From: Arthrobacter terrae
Lineage (GTDB): Bacteria; Actinomycetota; Actinomycetes; Actinomycetales; Micrococcaceae
DNA: 64,000 nucleotides
NCBI RefSeq assembly: GCF_015708085.1
Contig: NZ_JADNYM010000002.1
Location: 1-64,000, forward strand
Direction: 5' to 3'
Shown here: piece after piece, positions 16,535 to 54,507 of the stretch
Numbering within the stretch: position 1 is the stretch's first letter
How the letters are laid out: the number at the start of each line of letters is the position of its first letter
Position numbers and translations under genes: made by a program
Notes under the pieces: generated by a model
Told to the model about the DNA's origin: nothing
The model's input: only the letters and a program-made list of their open reading frames with translations
Database searches by the model: none

Positions 16535-18019
16535 CTACCGCTCATCCTCATGGTCGCCGGGATGGTCCTTGACCAGTCCGGCGGCCAGGATGTTGCCGTA
16601 CAGCGGATCAATGACCAGGAACGCTCCGGTGCGCCGGTGCCGCGCGTACGGTTCAACGGGCAGCGCTGAAGCCAGCCGGATCTGCACGCTGCCAATGTCG
16701 TTTAATTCCAGACCGGAAGCCGCCTGTTCCTGAAAGCTGGCCAGGTCCAGCTTCCCCGTGACGGCGCGAACCAGTGCCGTCACGGTCCTGCTGCCGTGCT
16801 TGATCAGGACTTTGGCGCCTTCGCACAGTGGTTTAGGCGAGAGCCAGCAGAGCTCGGCGTGCAGGTCCTGCGTTGGAGCGACGAATGTTCCCGCGGCCGC
16901 GATGAGGTCCCCGCGGGCAATGTCGATCTCATCGGCCAGCCGGAGCGAGACGGACTGCGGCGCCACTGCAACGCTGATGTCAGTTCCGGCAAAATCGATG
17001 CCAACGACGGTGCTGCTAAGCCCGGAAGGAAGTACCGTCACGCGGTCCCCCACGGCGACGGACCCGGAGGCCAGCTGGCCCGCATAGGCGCGGTAATCAC
17101 GGAAGGTGTCCGGGCCGCCGTCGCCCGTTTCCGCAGGCTCTGCAGCCAGCTCGGGCGCCAACGCACCCTGCGGCCGGATCACCAGCTGAACGGGAAATCG
17201 GAAGGGCTCCTGCCCGCGTTCCAGCTCATCGGTGGAGGGCAGCGCCTGCAGAATCTGAAGCAGACTCGGTCCCGTGTACCAGGAAGTGCGTGCGGACCGA
17301 TCCACCACGTTGTCTCCGGAGAGCGCTGAAATCGGGACCACCAGCACATCCGCCAGCCCCAGCCGGGCACTGACTTTCCGTACCTCGTCGGCAATGGCGG
17401 TGAACACCTCTGCGCTGTAGCCGACCAGATCAATCTTGTTCACAGCCACCACCACGTGCGGCACACGCAGCAGCCGCAGCACGCAAAGATGCCGCCGGGT
17501 CTGTTCCAGCACGCCCTTGCGCGCGTCAATGAGGACGACGACGGCGTCGGCCGTGGAGGCGCCGGTCACCGTGTTTTTGGTGTACTGCACGTGCCCGGGG
17601 CAGTCCGCCAGGATGAAGCTGCGCTGGTCGGTGGCGAAGTAGCGGTAGGCGACGTCGATGGTGATGCCCTGTTCGCGTTCCGCGCGGAGTCCGTCTGTGA
17701 GCAGCGCCAGGTCGATCTGCTGGCCACCGGGCTCGCCGCCGGGTTCGCTGCCGGGTTCGCTGCCGGGTTCGCTGCCGGGCTCGCCACCGTTAAAACCGCG
17801 CGCCGCAGAGGCCCGGGTGACCGACTCCAACTGGTCGGCCAGGATGGCTTTGCTGTCATGCAGCAGCCGGCCCACGAGCGTTGATTTGCCGTCGTCCACG
17901 GATCCGGCGGTGGCGAAGCGGAAGAGCGTCCCCACCCGTTCCCTAACCTCTCGCTCGGCCAGGGAACCGTGCGGGCGTGGGCCCACACCGGACGCGAATG
18001 TCTGTGTGCTGATAGTCAT
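16535..18019 (-). CDS. cysN: Sulfate adenylyltransferase subunit 1 (GTPase subunit)
   Basis: CysN, 494 residues, is the GTP-hydrolysing subunit that drives ATP sulfurylase (sulfate + ATP to APS + pyrophosphate) with CysD. The GTPase motifs are G1 GSVDDGKST (about residues 39-47), the switch region EREQGITIDVAYRYF, G3 DCPGH and G4 NKID, followed by EF-Tu-like beta-barrels with RDYRAYAGQLASG. No C-terminal APS kinase domain is present. Five 12-bp tandem repeats (17727-17786) insert a Gly-Ser-Glu-Pro string at residues about 79-99, between G1 and G2. Its ATG shares one base with the cysD stop (TAATG), so the operon is coupled. Confidence 0.95.
   Translation of the reverse strand: MTISTQTFASGVGPRPHGSLAEREVRERVGTLFRFATAGSVDDGKSTLVGRLLHDSKAILADQLESVTRASAARGFNGGEPGSEPGSEPGSEPGGEPGGQQIDLALLTDGLRAEREQGITIDVAYRYFATDQRSFILADCPGHVQYTKNTVTGASTADAVVVLIDARKGVLEQTRRHLCVLRLLRVPHVVVAVNKIDLVGYSAEVFTAIADEVRKVSARLGLADVLVVPISALSGDNVVDRSARTSWYTGPSLLQILQALPSTDELERGQEPFRFPVQLVIRPQGALAPELAAEPAETGDGGPDTFRDYRAYAGQLASGSVAVGDRVTVLPSGLSSTVVGIDFAGTDISVAVAPQSVSLRLADEIDIARGDLIAAAGTFVAPTQDLHAELCWLSPKPLCEGAKVLIKHGSRTVTALVRAVTGKLDLASFQEQAASGLELNDIGSVQIRLASALPVEPYARHRRTGAFLVIDPLYGNILAAGLVKDHPGDHEDER
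17727..17786 (-). repeat. Five 12-bp tandem repeats inside cysN
   Basis: Consecutive units at 17727, 17739, 17751, 17763 and 17775 read CCGGGyTCGCyG on the plus strand; three are identical. They encode (E/G)PG(S/G) repeats in CysN. The array keeps the reading frame and lies in a surface loop before switch I by comparison with other CysN GTPases. Confidence 0.9.
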
Positions 18020-31770: not shown

Positions 31771-33180
31771 ATGACTGCGTCCCTGACCGCCCTCACCGTG
31801 CCGCTCGATCTGTCCTTTTTCACCATCTCCGGGCACCTGAGGCAAAAGTCGGAACAGTACGGGCTGAGCGACCTGTTGTGCATTGACGGCGCGTTGTGCT
31901 GGATCCGCCGCGGCGAGGGCCTGGTGGCCTTCGGAGAGTTGACGCGCTTCAGCGGAACCGGACCGGAGCGTTTTGCCGATGCTGAGCAATGGTGGAAAGC
32001 GCTGTTGTCCAGCTCACACGCCCAGGATTCCGTCCGACTTCCCGGTACCGGCCCGGTGGCCTTCGGCTCCTTCGCCTTCTCCAAAACTTCGTCCTTTGAG
32101 TCCCGGTTGATTATCCCCGCTCTGGTGGTCGGCTTCCGCGCCGGGCTCGTCTGGTTGACGCAGATGACGCTCGACGGCGGCCCGCTCACAGCCGCCGGCG
32201 CGCACGCCGCCCTTGGCCTGCTGATTGACAGCGCCGCCCGGCCACAGCCGGGCAGTCCCGGGCCGTTGAGTCCTGAGCCGTTGAGCCCTGAGCCGTTGAG
32301 CCCTGAGCCGTTGAGCCCTGAAGAGGCAAATACCGAGCCGCCGGAAGCAGTGGTCTCCAGCGGAGCCCTCAGCGAGCAGGATTGGCTGGCCGCCGTCGCA
32401 GCCGGAGTCAGCGCGATCGAATCCGGAGCGCTGGAAAAAGTGGTGCTGGCACGGGACATCGTCGCCACCTTCGCAGAGCCCGTCTCCCGCCCCGCCATTT
32501 TGCAGGCGCTGACGGAGCGCTACAGCGAATGCTGGACGTACGGGGTGGAAGGGCTGGTCGGAGCCACCCCGGAAATCCTCATCAAAGTAGAGGGACGCAC
32601 CGCGCAGGCGCGGGTGCTGGCGGGCACGCTGGACCGCGAGGACGCGCCGGAGGATGCCGCCGGGTTTGCCCGCGAGGTGCTGGCCGGATCGATAAAGCAG
32701 CGGCAGGAACACGATTTCGCCGTCCGGTCACTGACCCGCCAATTGGCCCCCTTCGCCGTCGACCTCTTCTTCCCGCCGGAGCCCTTCATCCTGGAGCTGC
32801 CCAACGTCTGGCATCTGGCCTCCGACGTCAACGCGGAACTGGCGGACGTGGATGGCCATCTCCCCACCTCGCTGGCGCTGGTGGAGGCGCTGCATCCTAC
32901 TGCCGCCGTTTGCGGAACGCCGCGCAGCGAAGCGGGGGCGCTGATCCGCGAGCTGGAGGGGCTTGACCGCGGTCCCTACGCCGGACCGGTGGGCTGGCTG
33001 GACGGTTCCGGCAACGGCGAGTGGGGCATTGCCCTGCGCGGTGCGGTTCTGGAAAATCCGACGACGGCGCGGCTGTATGCCGGTTGCGGCATCGTGGCCG
33101 CGTCGGATCCGGAAGCTGAACTCGCCGAGACCTGGGCTAAATTCCGTCCGATGCTGCAGGCGTTGGGCCTGCGCGCCTAA
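31771..33180 (+). CDS. menF: Isochorismate synthase, menaquinone pathway
   Basis: A 469-residue chorismate-utilising enzyme that makes isochorismate for MenD. The C-terminal chorismate-binding domain has EKVVLARDIVATF, TYGVEGLVGATPEILI, LAGTLDR, LPNVWHLASDVNAEL, LHPTAAVCGTPRSEA and LDRGPYAGPVGWLD. Between the N-terminal domain and this core, four 15-bp tandem repeats (32263-32322) encode PLSPE repeated at residues about 165-184. The gene is divergent from menG and is followed by an amino-acid transporter, with menD and menC further on, so the pathway genes are loosely grouped. Confidence 0.92.
   Translation: MTASLTALTVPLDLSFFTISGHLRQKSEQYGLSDLLCIDGALCWIRRGEGLVAFGELTRFSGTGPERFADAEQWWKALLSSSHAQDSVRLPGTGPVAFGSFAFSKTSSFESRLIIPALVVGFRAGLVWLTQMTLDGGPLTAAGAHAALGLLIDSAARPQPGSPGPLSPEPLSPEPLSPEPLSPEEANTEPPEAVVSSGALSEQDWLAAVAAGVSAIESGALEKVVLARDIVATFAEPVSRPAILQALTERYSECWTYGVEGLVGATPEILIKVEGRTAQARVLAGTLDREDAPEDAAGFAREVLAGSIKQRQEHDFAVRSLTRQLAPFAVDLFFPPEPFILELPNVWHLASDVNAELADVDGHLPTSLALVEALHPTAAVCGTPRSEAGALIRELEGLDRGPYAGPVGWLDGSGNGEWGIALRGAVLENPTTARLYAGCGIVAASDPEAELAETWAKFRPMLQALGLRA
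32263..32322 (+). repeat. Four 15-bp tandem repeats inside menF
   Basis: Units starting at 32263, 32278, 32293 and 32308 read CCGTTGAGyCCTGAr; the second and third are identical. They encode (PLSPE)4 in the linker before the chorismate-binding domain and keep the frame. Confidence 0.9.
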
Positions 33181-42262: not shown

Positions 42263-43699
42263 CTACATGTCCGCCAGGACAGATCCCGGATTCTCAATCG
42301 CATCCGCAACATAGCGCAGGAACCCGCCTGCCGTGCCGCCGTCGCACACCCGATGGTCAAAGACCAGCGTAAGCTCGGTGAGCTTACGAACGGCCAGTGC
42401 GCCGTCCACCACCCAGGGCTTGTCGATGATCCGGCCAATGCCGAGGATCGCGGATTCGGGGTAGTTAATGATGGCAGCCGATCCGTCCACACCGAAGACA
42501 CCGTAGTTATTGAGCGTAAAGGTGCCGCGGGACAGCTCAGCCGGCGTCGCCTTTCCTGCACGGGCAACGGTGGTCAGCCGGCGGATCTCCACGTCAAGTT
42601 CCCTGGCACTGAGCTTTTCCGCGTGCTCGACCGACGGGACCATTAGACCCCGCTCGGTCTGGGCCGCGAAACCCAGATTAATGCCGTCGAGGGTGACGAT
42701 CTGCTGTCCTACTGCAGTGCCCTCAATCCGGGAATTGAGTTCCGGATATCTCGCCAAACCTGCGGTGACGAAACGCGCAATGAAGGCCAGCAGGCCAGGG
42801 GTGTTGTCCGGATTCCGTTGCTTGAGGCTGCTGCGCAGTTCCACCAGCGCCGTGGCGTCGACGTCCACCCATACGGTGGCTTCGGGGATTTCACTGCGGC
42901 TCCGGCTCAGGTTTTCCGCAACCGTCTTCCGCAGCCCCTTCAGCGCGGTGCGGCTGCGGATGGTCAGGCCAGTTCGTGCATCACGCTGCTCCGCACTGCC
43001 TGCACTGCCTGCATCGCCTGCACTGCCTGCACTGCCTGCACTGCCTGCACTGCCTGCACTGGATTGTCCTGCCAGCGCGGCTTCGACATCGCGGCGCAGG
43101 ATCAGGCCCTGCGGCCCGGAACCCGCAATGGAATGCAGCAGAAGACCGCCGTCGCGGGCCAGCTTGCGGACCAGCGGTGAAATCACCAGCGGGCTGCGGT
43201 GATTGACGGAAACCGCCGACGGCGCGACGGGGACCGCCGCAGAGGCGACGGAGACCGGCGCAGACGCAGTGGAGACCGCCGCAGACGCAGGGGAGACCGC
43301 GACGGGGCCGGTTGCCGCTGCACTGGCAGAACTCGCTTGCCCCACCGCTGACTTCTTGCGCGGTCGCGTCCGGCCGCCGGCTCCGTGGCCGGAGGTGCCA
43401 TAGCCGATCAGGACATTTCCGGACCCCTTTGAGCCACCGGTCTCCACCGGTTCAGTCATCGCTGACTGAACCGATATCAGCGGCTTGCCCACATCCATCG
43501 TCTGTCCCGCTTCGCCGTGCAGCACCGCCACCTGACCGGCAAAGGGCGACGGCACCTCAACGACTGATTTGGCCGTTTCAACCTCTGCGATCGGCTGGTC
43601 CACGGCGACCTCATCTCCCACCCGGACCAGCCAGTTAACCAACTCCGCCTCGGTTAGACCTTCACCGAGATCGGGCAGCAAAAATACCTGAAGACTCAC
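42263..43699 (-). CDS. Branched-chain 2-oxoacid dehydrogenase E2 (dihydrolipoyl acyltransferase)
   Basis: A 478-residue E2. The lipoyl domain (about 1-76) has the lipoylated Lys in EVETAKSVVEVPSP. A peripheral subunit-binding domain at about 155-195 reads SPLVRKLARDGGLLLHSIAG. The catalytic domain (about 250-478) carries LVFDHRVCDGGTAGGFL (HxxxDG). The two linkers are repetitive: an Ala/Ser/Val-rich stretch near 120-150 and a (GSA)n run near 220-240 from seven 9-bp repeats. The GTG start at 43699 overlaps the E1-beta stop (GTGA), which is better than the in-frame ATG at 43711. No E3 gene is adjacent. Confidence 0.9.
   Translation of the reverse strand: MSLQVFLLPDLGEGLTEAELVNWLVRVGDEVAVDQPIAEVETAKSVVEVPSPFAGQVAVLHGEAGQTMDVGKPLISVQSAMTEPVETGGSKGSGNVLIGYGTSGHGAGGRTRPRKKSAVGQASSASAAATGPVAVSPASAAVSTASAPVSVASAAVPVAPSAVSVNHRSPLVISPLVRKLARDGGLLLHSIAGSGPQGLILRRDVEAALAGQSSAGSAGSAGSAGSAGDAGSAGSAEQRDARTGLTIRSRTALKGLRKTVAENLSRSRSEIPEATVWVDVDATALVELRSSLKQRNPDNTPGLLAFIARFVTAGLARYPELNSRIEGTAVGQQIVTLDGINLGFAAQTERGLMVPSVEHAEKLSARELDVEIRRLTTVARAGKATPAELSRGTFTLNNYGVFGVDGSAAIINYPESAILGIGRIIDKPWVVDGALAVRKLTELTLVFDHRVCDGGTAGGFLRYVADAIENPGSVLADM
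42994..43056 (-). repeat. Seven 9-bp tandem repeats inside the E2 gene
   Basis: CACTGCCTG is repeated from 42994 to 43056 (seven units; the third is CATCGCCTG). They encode (GSA)n in the linker before the catalytic domain. A second, looser periodic stretch lies at about 43215-43315 in the other linker. Confidence 0.9.
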
Positions 43700-53113: not shown

Positions 53114-54112
53114 TCACCAGCTTGCCCCCGGATATTCCCGCGCCAGCACCTGCATCTCGGCCAAAATATAGCCCAGATGCTCCGAATGCTGTCCACGCCG
53201 GCCGCCACCGAGCGCCGACGGCACGTCGGGAACGTCGATTTCGGCCTCCGTCAATACCTCGTTGGTCAGGCGATCAAAATCGGCACGCATTGAGGAAGGC
53301 GCGACGGCGGCGTCCCCGAGTCGTGCGGTCAGCGCATCGTCCTCGAAGAGTTCACCAACGTAGGGCCAGAGCAGCCGCAGTCCGGCCAACAAACGGCTGC
53401 GGGATTCATCGGTGCCCAAGGCCAGCCGCAGGACCCACTGCGCGCTGTGATCACGGTGGTAATCCACCTCCTTGACCGCCTTGGCAGCGATTGCGGCGAC
53501 GGTGGCATCCGTGGAGGCGGTCAACCTCCGGTACAGCTCGTACTGGTAATAGGAGACGATGAACTGCCGGACGATGGTGACGGCGAAATCGCCGTTGGGC
53601 TGCTCAAAAAGATGCGCTGAACGGAACTCCGGCTCCCGCCGAAAGTAGGCAAGCTCGTCCTCGGTCTTCCCCCATGCGGCACCGGCGTAGGTCAGGAGGG
53701 AGCGGGCATGGCCCAACTGATCGAGGGCAATGTTGCCCAGCGCCACATCTTCTTCCAGCTCGGGAGCGCGCGAGATCCAGTGGCCCAACCGCTGGGCCAG
53801 GATCAGGGCGTCGTCTCCGAGCCGCAGGGCGTATTCGCCCACGTCTTCGCTGGGCTTAGCTTCGCCGCGCTGCACTTCCAGAGCAATGTCCTCCGGTCGC
53901 AGGGCATTGCCGGGGGTAATGCGGGTAGCGCTTGCTGGGCCCACGCCGGCGAGGGACCCGGCCTGAGCCTGCGAAGGTTGGGAGCCGGTGGATGGGCCCA
54001 CGCCGGCGAGGGACCCGGCCTGAGCCTGCGAAGGTTGGGAGCCGGTGGATGGGCCCACGCCGGCGAGGGACCCGGCCTGAGCCTGCGAAGGTTGGGAGCC
54101 GGTGGGGATCAC
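53114..54112 (-). CDS. paaC: Phenylacetyl-CoA epoxidase structural subunit, repeat-extended N-terminus
   Basis: PaaC partners PaaA in the epoxidase heart. The family core (from about residue 72, EDIALEVQRG) contains YALRLGDDALILAQRLGHW, EEDVALGNIALDQLGHAR and YYQYELYRRL, and ends YILAEMQVLAREYPGASW. Typical PaaC is about 250-270 residues; this one has 332 because residues about 4-60 are three copies of a 19-residue unit ([17 protein letters not shown] plus two residues) encoded by three exact 57-bp repeats. The last few bases overlap paaB (54109-54112). The extension is probably disordered and must be tolerated in the complex or removed. Confidence 0.93.
   Translation of the reverse strand: MIPTGSQPSQAQAGSLAGVGPSTGSQPSQAQAGSLAGVGPSTGSQPSQAQAGSLAGVGPASATRITPGNALRPEDIALEVQRGEAKPSEDVGEYALRLGDDALILAQRLGHWISRAPELEEDVALGNIALDQLGHARSLLTYAGAAWGKTEDELAYFRREPEFRSAHLFEQPNGDFAVTIVRQFIVSYYQYELYRRLTASTDATVAAIAAKAVKEVDYHRDHSAQWVLRLALGTDESRSRLLAGLRLLWPYVGELFEDDALTARLGDAAVAPSSMRADFDRLTNEVLTEAEIDVPDVPSALGGGRRGQHSEHLGYILAEMQVLAREYPGASW
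53936..54106 (-). repeat. Three 57-bp tandem repeats in the 5' part of paaC
   Basis: Units at 53936-53992, 53993-54049 and 54050-54106 are essentially identical. Each has a CGCCGGCG core flanked by GGGCCCA and AGGGACCC, an imperfect dyad that could fold as a hairpin, followed by GCCTGCGAAGGTTGGGAGCC. The length is a multiple of three and all copies read in the same frame. Confidence 0.95.
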
Positions 54113-54507
54113 AGGTGCTTCACGCCTTCACTCTTCACGTAATAAGTCGCGTGGCGGTAGTCCTTGCCCTGCGGGGACTCGAAAAAGGATCCCTTGGAGT
54201 CAGGGTCGCTGGCCGCAATCGCATCCGCGGGAACCACCCAGATGGAGACGCCCTCATTACGCCGCGTATAGAGATCCCGCGCGTTGCGAAGGGCCATCGC
54301 AGCATCCGGTGCGTGCAGGGATCCGGCGTGCACATGGGAAAGTCCGCGGCTGGACCGGACAAAGACTTCCCACAACGGCCAGCCGGTGGCTGTTCCGCTG
54401 GTGGTGGACCCGGTCTGTGGGCCCACGCCGGCGAGGGACCCGGCCTGAGCCTGCGAAGGTTGGGAGCCGGTGGGGACCTGCGAAGGTTGGGGGTTGCTTG
54501 GGCTCAC
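54109..54507 (-). CDS. paaB: Phenylacetyl-CoA epoxidase subunit B, repeat-extended N-terminus
   Basis: The small non-catalytic PaaB subunit. The family domain starts at [14 protein letters not shown] (about residue 44) and continues [35 protein letters not shown] and the end [18 protein letters not shown]. Typical PaaB is about 95 residues; here 132, because one copy of the 57-bp repeat also found in paaC, plus a partial copy (PQPSQ), is fused in frame to the start. It begins with GTG overlapping the paaA stop (GTGA). Confidence 0.92.
54418..54474 (-). repeat. Single copy of the paaC 57-bp repeat in paaB, with an adjacent fragment
   Basis: 54418-54474 matches the paaC unit over its full length apart from the terminal bases. 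A 15-bp piece CCTGCGAAGGTTGGG at 54477-54491 is a partial second copy. Confidence 0.93.

Follow-up and report, generated by a model that had tools for sequence, protein, structure and literature searches.

A hairpin-forming repeat of the Micrococcaceae with a preference for the position behind stop codons, and its probable entry into PaaB and PaaC through four-base gene overlaps

The paaABCD genes on the minus strand of the window (the whole stretch of Arthrobacter terrae DNA analyzed in this study, 64,000 nucleotides) raise the question of how one and the same repeat came to lie in frame at the start of two adjacent genes. An earlier note on this DNA had described a 57-bp repeat inserted in frame into paaB and paaC, which was confirmed by Tandem Repeats Finder, the open reading frames and a covariance model (Table 1). 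The array at 53936-54105 contained 3.0 copies of 57 bp with 100% matches, a 23-mer core of the unit was found four times in the window when up to 3 mismatches were allowed (0.00 expected from shuffling), and the units in both genes all shared one reading frame and opened the coding sequence. Moreover, the extension was present relative to the orthologues of the nearest element-free relative, Paenarthrobacter sp. PH39-S1 (locus L050). PaaC, lengthened by three exact units, comprised 332 aa as compared with 276 aa, which gave 56 extra residues where 57 had been claimed, and the PaaB core, WPLWEVF, began at residue 43 instead of residue 7, which agreed in length (about 36 extra residues) with the claimed extension of about 37. 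As the note had also stated, both insertions kept the frame and lay upstream of the conserved domains, which began at residue 43 of PaaB and, for the PaaA_PaaC domain, at residue 86 of PaaC. The description of the PaaB insertion as one unit plus a fragment, however, had to be given up. By eye, paaB appears to contain an older outer copy, the loop of which is interrupted by a complete unit, and similar nesting was seen by eye in paaC of L090 and in paaB of L052. The note had also held that the repeat crossed a gene boundary. In the window, the units in paaB matched those in paaC exactly across the 53-nt profile, which suggests copying between both sites, yet each site also looks like a typical stop-abutting site, and such a crossing is therefore no more than possible.

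Table 1. Positions of the paa genes, the element units and the cysN copy in the window
Feature	Position	Strand	Evidence
cysN carrying an antisense copy	16535..18019	-	ORF; TIGR02034 CysN
Diverged element copy, antisense, read in frame near the cysN N-terminus	17929..17985	+	covariance model 59.7 bits, E 5.7e-9
paaC, 332 aa, N-terminal extension of three units	53114..54112	-	ORF; PF05138 residues 86-332; TIGR02158
paaC element unit 3	53936..53992	-	Tandem Repeats Finder; covariance model 72.0 bits
paaC element unit 2	53993..54049	-	covariance model 72.0 bits
paaC element unit 1, full 59 nt, adjoining the paaB stop codon	54050..54108	-	covariance model 83.6 bits; flank CACCTGTGA followed by TCCCC
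GTGA, paaB stop TGA overlapping paaC start GTG	54109..54112	-	ORF coordinates
paaB, 132 aa, with N-terminal extension	54109..54507	-	ORF; PF06243 residues 43-128; TIGR02157
paaB outer copy, probable right half (CAGACCGGGTCC...), short	54400..54417	-	by eye
paaB complete element unit	54418..54476	-	covariance model 83.6 bits
paaB broken outer copy, left half (GCCCAAGCAACCCCCAACCTTCGCAGG), loop interrupted by the complete unit	54477..54503	-	by eye
GTGA, paaA stop TGA overlapping paaB start GTG	54504..54507	-	ORF coordinates
paaA	54504..55505	-	TIGR02156

The repeat had been taken for an interspersed palindromic element, and this interpretation held, as further copies were found in its own genome and in relatives, and in-frame copies in unrelated genes. 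A profile grown from the unit collected 67 units in 35 loci. A DNA search, in which up to 4 candidates per genome were scored, found the element in 41 of 197 genomes of the family and in 15 of 32 genera, and a covariance model built on a 30-unit alignment, with up to 55 candidates scored per genome, found it in 30 of 100 genomes, spread over 11 of 32 genera, with up to 39 copies per genome. In an order-wide sample of 198 genomes, six matched at E<=1e-6, all of which belonged to the window's own family, and as far as sampled the element appears to be confined to the Micrococcaceae. The window's own genome contained eight matches at E<0.01 (nine at E<=1), namely four in paaB and paaC, one in cysN and three elsewhere. 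The five intragenic copies were the best-scoring ones; one of the three others abutted a TAG and two lay 4 to about 20 bases behind a TAG. The unit measured 59 nt, tandem spacings ranged from 54 to 59 bp, and most loci in one listing of copies seemed by eye to be intergenic. Being interspersed, hairpin-forming and largely extragenic (the extragenic share was judged by eye), the element is a REP in the wide sense. Rfam searches of eight loci returned three matches up to E 5, none of which overlapped the element, and no description of it was found in the literature searched, including the available portions of PMC12306157, PMC3733652 and PMC13186573. Of the three copies that the window's genome has outside paaB, paaC and cysN, one (L341, at the same site as L004) followed a gene read by eye as aceE. 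Similar longer flanks, with GTGCCCG directly before the element, were observed at L140, L142, L182, L183 and L229, as if a larger composite element were present, and L011 had a shorter version of this flank (CGCCCG).

The hairpin had been placed in a core centred on CGCCGGCG, whereas covariation pointed instead to a two-helix structure spanning the whole 59 nt. In 30 diverse aligned units, an outer and an inner helix comprised 17 pairs, in which 87.6% of the cells were paired (71.4 when shuffled) and 73 cells were changed on both sides (22.1 when shuffled). The covariation score was 0.366 as compared with 0.096 for shuffled alignments, none of 500 shuffles was as high, and slid controls reached at most 0.054; two of the five covariation measures lay within the shuffles, namely the 9 double-change pairs (54 of 500 as high) and the 23 further pair types (80 of 500). 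Furthermore, 19 units that are read as protein (18 distinct) gave a score of 0.277 as compared with 0.063, with all five measures attained by 0 or 1 of 500 shuffles, and this covariation may be older than their insertions. Single units folded by energy no better than shuffled ones (z of -0.25 to -0.89 in three foldings), and the structure therefore rests on covariation. With regard to MITEs, which have terminal inverted repeats and target-site duplications, the ends of the element were complementary (TCCCCA and TGGGCCCA), and no target-site duplication was seen by eye among the few clean empty sites. All six frames were open in 70 of 120 units as compared with 28.3 after shuffling, for part of which composition accounts. 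Insertion into hairpin loops was considered as a general rule and rejected, given that flank complementarity was unenriched (11 of 118 arrays over the 95% point and 1 of 118 over the 99% point); by eye, the loop position was confined to nested copies (L090, L052, paaB of the window and others) and L192.

The commonest single position of the element was directly behind a stop codon. Among 118 arrays from 119 sources searched, the left edge lay exactly at the end of a stop codon (offset -3) in 40, as compared with a mean of 2.5 at offsets -60 to -5. The 118 include some paa loci picked for paa as well as some units further along in a tandem array, and orthologous copies are counted more than once among them. 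Thirteen duplicate entries (L151-L153, L155, L156, L159-L161, L165, L167, L181, L186 and L205) had been dropped before the count. Thirty-five of the 40 stops closed open frames of at least 120 codons, the adjacency was limited to the sense side (the opposite side abutted a stop in 1 of 118 arrays), and 32 sites were left when the eight paa loci were set aside. Because 78 of the 118 arrays did not abut a stop codon, stop adjacency is at most a strong preference. In addition, a pattern search of 295 genomes, which required a non-C at -3, gave matches in 43 genomes; among the 150 matches listed, the trinucleotides of which were transcribed by hand and the loci of which are partly shared with the 118 arrays, 86 had a stop codon at -3 (TAG 50, TGA 19 and TAA 17), where 3 in 48 would be expected if letters were even. 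Long coding-like frames at these loci ended mostly in TGA (67, as compared with 36 TAG and 19 TAA), and against this background TAG was over-represented at the element edge. At four sites (L125, L128, L204 and L212), orthologues without a full copy had their stop at this very codon, in some cases as a different trinucleotide, and the stop position at these sites is therefore native. Five orthologues that lack the full element at the L125 site (L241, L242, L243, L247 and L250) had TCCCCAC-like letters directly behind the stop, as if these were the scars of earlier copies, and some sites may thus be old and decaying rather than freshly hit.

Selection rather than an insertion preference could account for this position if the element were a functional 3'-end RNA that tunes translation or mRNA decay, an explanation that we consider possible and still somewhat unlikely. 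The sense-only position at the stop codon agrees with it, as do the compensatory changes found even in protein-read copies, and earlier work cited in the available part of PMC12306157 has tied E. coli REPs within 15 nt of a stop codon to lower translation. In those REPs a hairpin likewise lies in the path of the terminating ribosome, whereas the distance here was zero in the 40 arrays, and the downstream gene can itself contain the hairpin. However, the presence and copy number of the element change between sister species, only the minority of family genomes given above (41 of 197) carry it, the compensatory differences may predate insertion, and at 2 of the 40 stop-abutting sites a strict scan showed a T-tailed hairpin further downstream, so that the element is not the sole terminator there; two sites are too small a number to judge a terminator role by. 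The explanation that we prefer is that a hairpin-forming interspersed element would insert directly behind stop codons in the sense direction, with a strong preference, and that its copies would then multiply locally in tandem.

Where two genes overlap by four bases, the position behind a stop codon has a further consequence. The overlap of paaB and paaC had the form xTGA in frame in 79 of 82 junctions, and that of paaA and paaB the form RTGA in frame in 40 of 83 junctions. In a GTGA overlap, an insert behind the upstream TGA therefore also lies behind the downstream start codon, and because stop and start share four bases, the element there is read as MIP[T/N/S].S..SQAR or close to it. A search of 395 genomes for RTGATCCCC with the element core gave 29 loci in 23 genomes. 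At 22 of the 29 loci, belonging to five gene pairs, the downstream frame ran through the insert into a recognisable gene. These genes were paaC (12, an over-representation), paaB (4), bsaP behind bioB (3), accE (2) and, downstream of an NMN adenylyltransferase-like gene, a Nudix regulator (1); family searches covered 8 of the 22 (L308, L313, L314, L320, L321, L324, L332 and paaC of the window), and the rest were named by eye. Since it was the open frame by which the 22 loci had been recognised, their total taken by itself is circular, and the loci were also sorted by the upstream gene alone; the frame was kept at all 12 junctions behind paaB, all 4 behind paaA and all 3 behind bioB, counts that yield no probability, as related sequences are not independent. 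The element seldom contained a stop in the read-in frame, and at L320 another element lay upstream of the ATGA. Seven of the 29 RTGA loci were without N-terminal read-in; a downstream gene overlapping the stop was absent at L312, L316, L317, L333 and L334, and the sequence of L311 runs off the contig. At L307, the upstream gene, an open frame of 523 codons, was read through the element, which forms its C-terminal end, a mirror of the N-terminal read-in. The longest extension among the loci listed was that of L321 (1501-2679), in which a PaaC of 393 aa contained repeated nested copies and matched PaaA_PaaC from residue 141.

These data bear on the remark that the element had learned to live inside coding sequence. 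Its in-frame position stands; as most of the copies listed seem by eye to be intergenic and no other position is as frequent as that adjoining a stop codon, the geometry of the four-base stop/start overlap explains this better than an adaptation of the element. A copy behind the upstream TGA of a GTGA pair would also follow immediately upon the start codon of the downstream gene, and where the frame is kept, the element would become an N-terminal extension of the downstream protein, which is predicted to be disordered (PaaC residues 4-69 had a pLDDT <50 with an alignment of 18 sequences). The account as a whole, in which an element of this family lies behind stops, meets the GTGA overlap and extends the N-termini of PaaB and PaaC, is regarded as probable. 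The element was presumably inserted at these sites rather than lost elsewhere, and the extension would be translated and harmless.

L050, the window and the sister species (G002) formed a clade of three rows (99%); in L050 the overlap GTGA is directly followed by GTGAAGCAAGCG, and in the window GTGA is followed by three units and GCAAGCG. The window contained one unit in paaB and three in paaC, and the sister species three and two, respectively. On the paa tree, which was built by a quick method and has 22 of 77 inner branches open, parsimony required 6 changes for paaB and 3 for paaC, each of which may be a gain or a loss; 3 of 83 paa loci (L103, L116 and L122) had been dropped before the tree was built, being without all three motifs. 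Across the 80 relatives listed, PaaB and PaaC differed at their N-termini both in sequence and in how long these were. A fixed loss of two bases upon insertion, suggested by the nested copies, was discarded, as the L050 comparison showed five bases replaced; a two-base loss is moreover uninformative because the coding frame demands it. L107, labelled Vibrio cholerae strain 35D, fell inside Arthrobacter in the tree and is probably a mislabelled or contaminated assembly.

The repeats might lie in the open frame without being translated, with initiation at the in-frame GTG of the last unit, so that they would form a leader between the two genes, and we judge this to be quite unlikely. Every unit of the window has such a GTG (GGC GTG GGC CCA). 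If the last of them served as the start, PaaC would begin MGPASATRIT, which is close to MSEASATRIT of L050, and would have nearly the L050 length; translation of the repeats is for this reason put no higher than probable, and the available part of PMC3733652 urges the same caution on internal starts for N-terminal REPs. That GTG, however, had no Shine-Dalgarno-like sequence upstream by eye, and the frame from the native start was kept behind paaB, paaA and bioB, in all of the loci counted above, across inserts of differing length, which counts against an internal start because such a start would leave the upstream frame free. Seven bases upstream of the paaB start, the window, the sister species and L050 shared an identical Shine-Dalgarno-like GAGG. 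Translation from the native start codon is the reading followed here.

With respect to known repeats, the element works like the Rickettsia palindromic elements (RPE) and the REPs but fails the GTAG, CGTC and RAYT tests. The comparison with RPE that had been drawn at the outset holds as a likeness in mode, since RPE are also palindromic and occur in frame in unrelated proteins, both internally and N-terminally. It does not hold further: RPE belong to another phylum, and many copies of the present element are extragenic, its edge often abuts stops and the CGTC tag is not the rule (CG before the left edge and TC behind it in 12 of 118 arrays; CGTC or GACG near the right end in 1 of 118). The GTAG- and CGTC-tagged REPs described in the available part of PMC3733652 are likewise short hairpin repeats near gene 3' ends; according to that source (Di Nocera 2013), GTAG termini often supply a TAG stop and some REPs lie within ORFs. 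In contrast, the element described here has all three stops at its edge, a longer unit (59 nt) and a stop position that, at the four sites examined, is common to orthologues without a full copy. That it might be a REP of the GTAG type, mobilised by a RAYT (IS200/IS605-type) transposase, is accordingly very improbable. It is palindromic, interspersed and close to gene 3' ends with TAG common at the edge, but of the 118 left edges 2 carried GTAG and 16 carried CTAG, GTAG or CTAC was near the right end in 1 of 118, and a RAYT-type transposase (Y1_Tnp) was detected in none of 30 genomes, 15 of which carried the element, when 5 of 14 control genomes matched. A large number of REPs has been predicted by RepRanger in Arthrobacter livingstonensis, in a table without sequences in the available part of PMC12306157; these are palindromic repeats in one species of the same group, and the present element may or may not be among them. 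Local tandem duplication of a variable linker without any mobile family, which would fit the variable PaaB and PaaC N-termini and the exact tandem copies, is hardly credible in view of homologous units at many unrelated loci in many genera and of covariation across loci.

A wider reading is offered tentatively, in which a mobile hairpin would have an insertion machinery that recognises the stop-codon gene ends of the coding strand and, by way of four-base overlaps, would keep making N-terminal extensions. If true, this would offer extragenic repeats a general way into the proteins of operons. The overlap geometry itself gives a simple rule, namely that a repeat behind a stop becomes protein if those four bases also hold the start of the following gene. 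From this rule follow the genes that are hit (the second of RTGA pairs), the reading frame and the peptide (MIP..S..SQAR..), and five gene pairs bore the rule out. The position of the element also raises the question of what places the hairpin exactly at stops on one strand, with no RAYT found in the genomes searched.

As in RPE, in-frame copies occurred inside unrelated genes, namely acs, hrpA, lhr, cysN, paaB, paaC, bsaP, accE and the Nudix regulator gene. The copy in acs (L210) lay within the PF13193 match (AMP-binding C-terminal domain), that in hrpA (L192) lay within PF11898 (DUF3418) and was nested, by eye, in a second palindromic repeat, and that in lhr (L136) lay where the winged-helix match splits into two stretches; in an amidohydrolase-like gene (L144), the copy was in another frame by eye. 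The second palindromic repeat, with the reading STGSTTGPVVEPVETK, was seen by eye at the same PaaB and Lhr linker sites (at the paaB N-terminus of L044 before 3001, and in L278) as well as around the nested hrpA copy, and we take it to be the STGSTTG..VVEPVET palindromic repeat of actinobacteria. It shares the PaaB and Lhr linker sites with the element and differs from it in sequence. The cysN gene of the window contained an in-frame 12-bp repeat (GEPGSEPGSEPGSEPGGEPGG) at 17723-17789, and thus holds a simple repeat as well as an element copy. Two more tandem repeats were observed in the window, one of 15 bp at 32262-32321 (4.0 copies) and one of 9 bp at 42993-43061 (7.7 copies).
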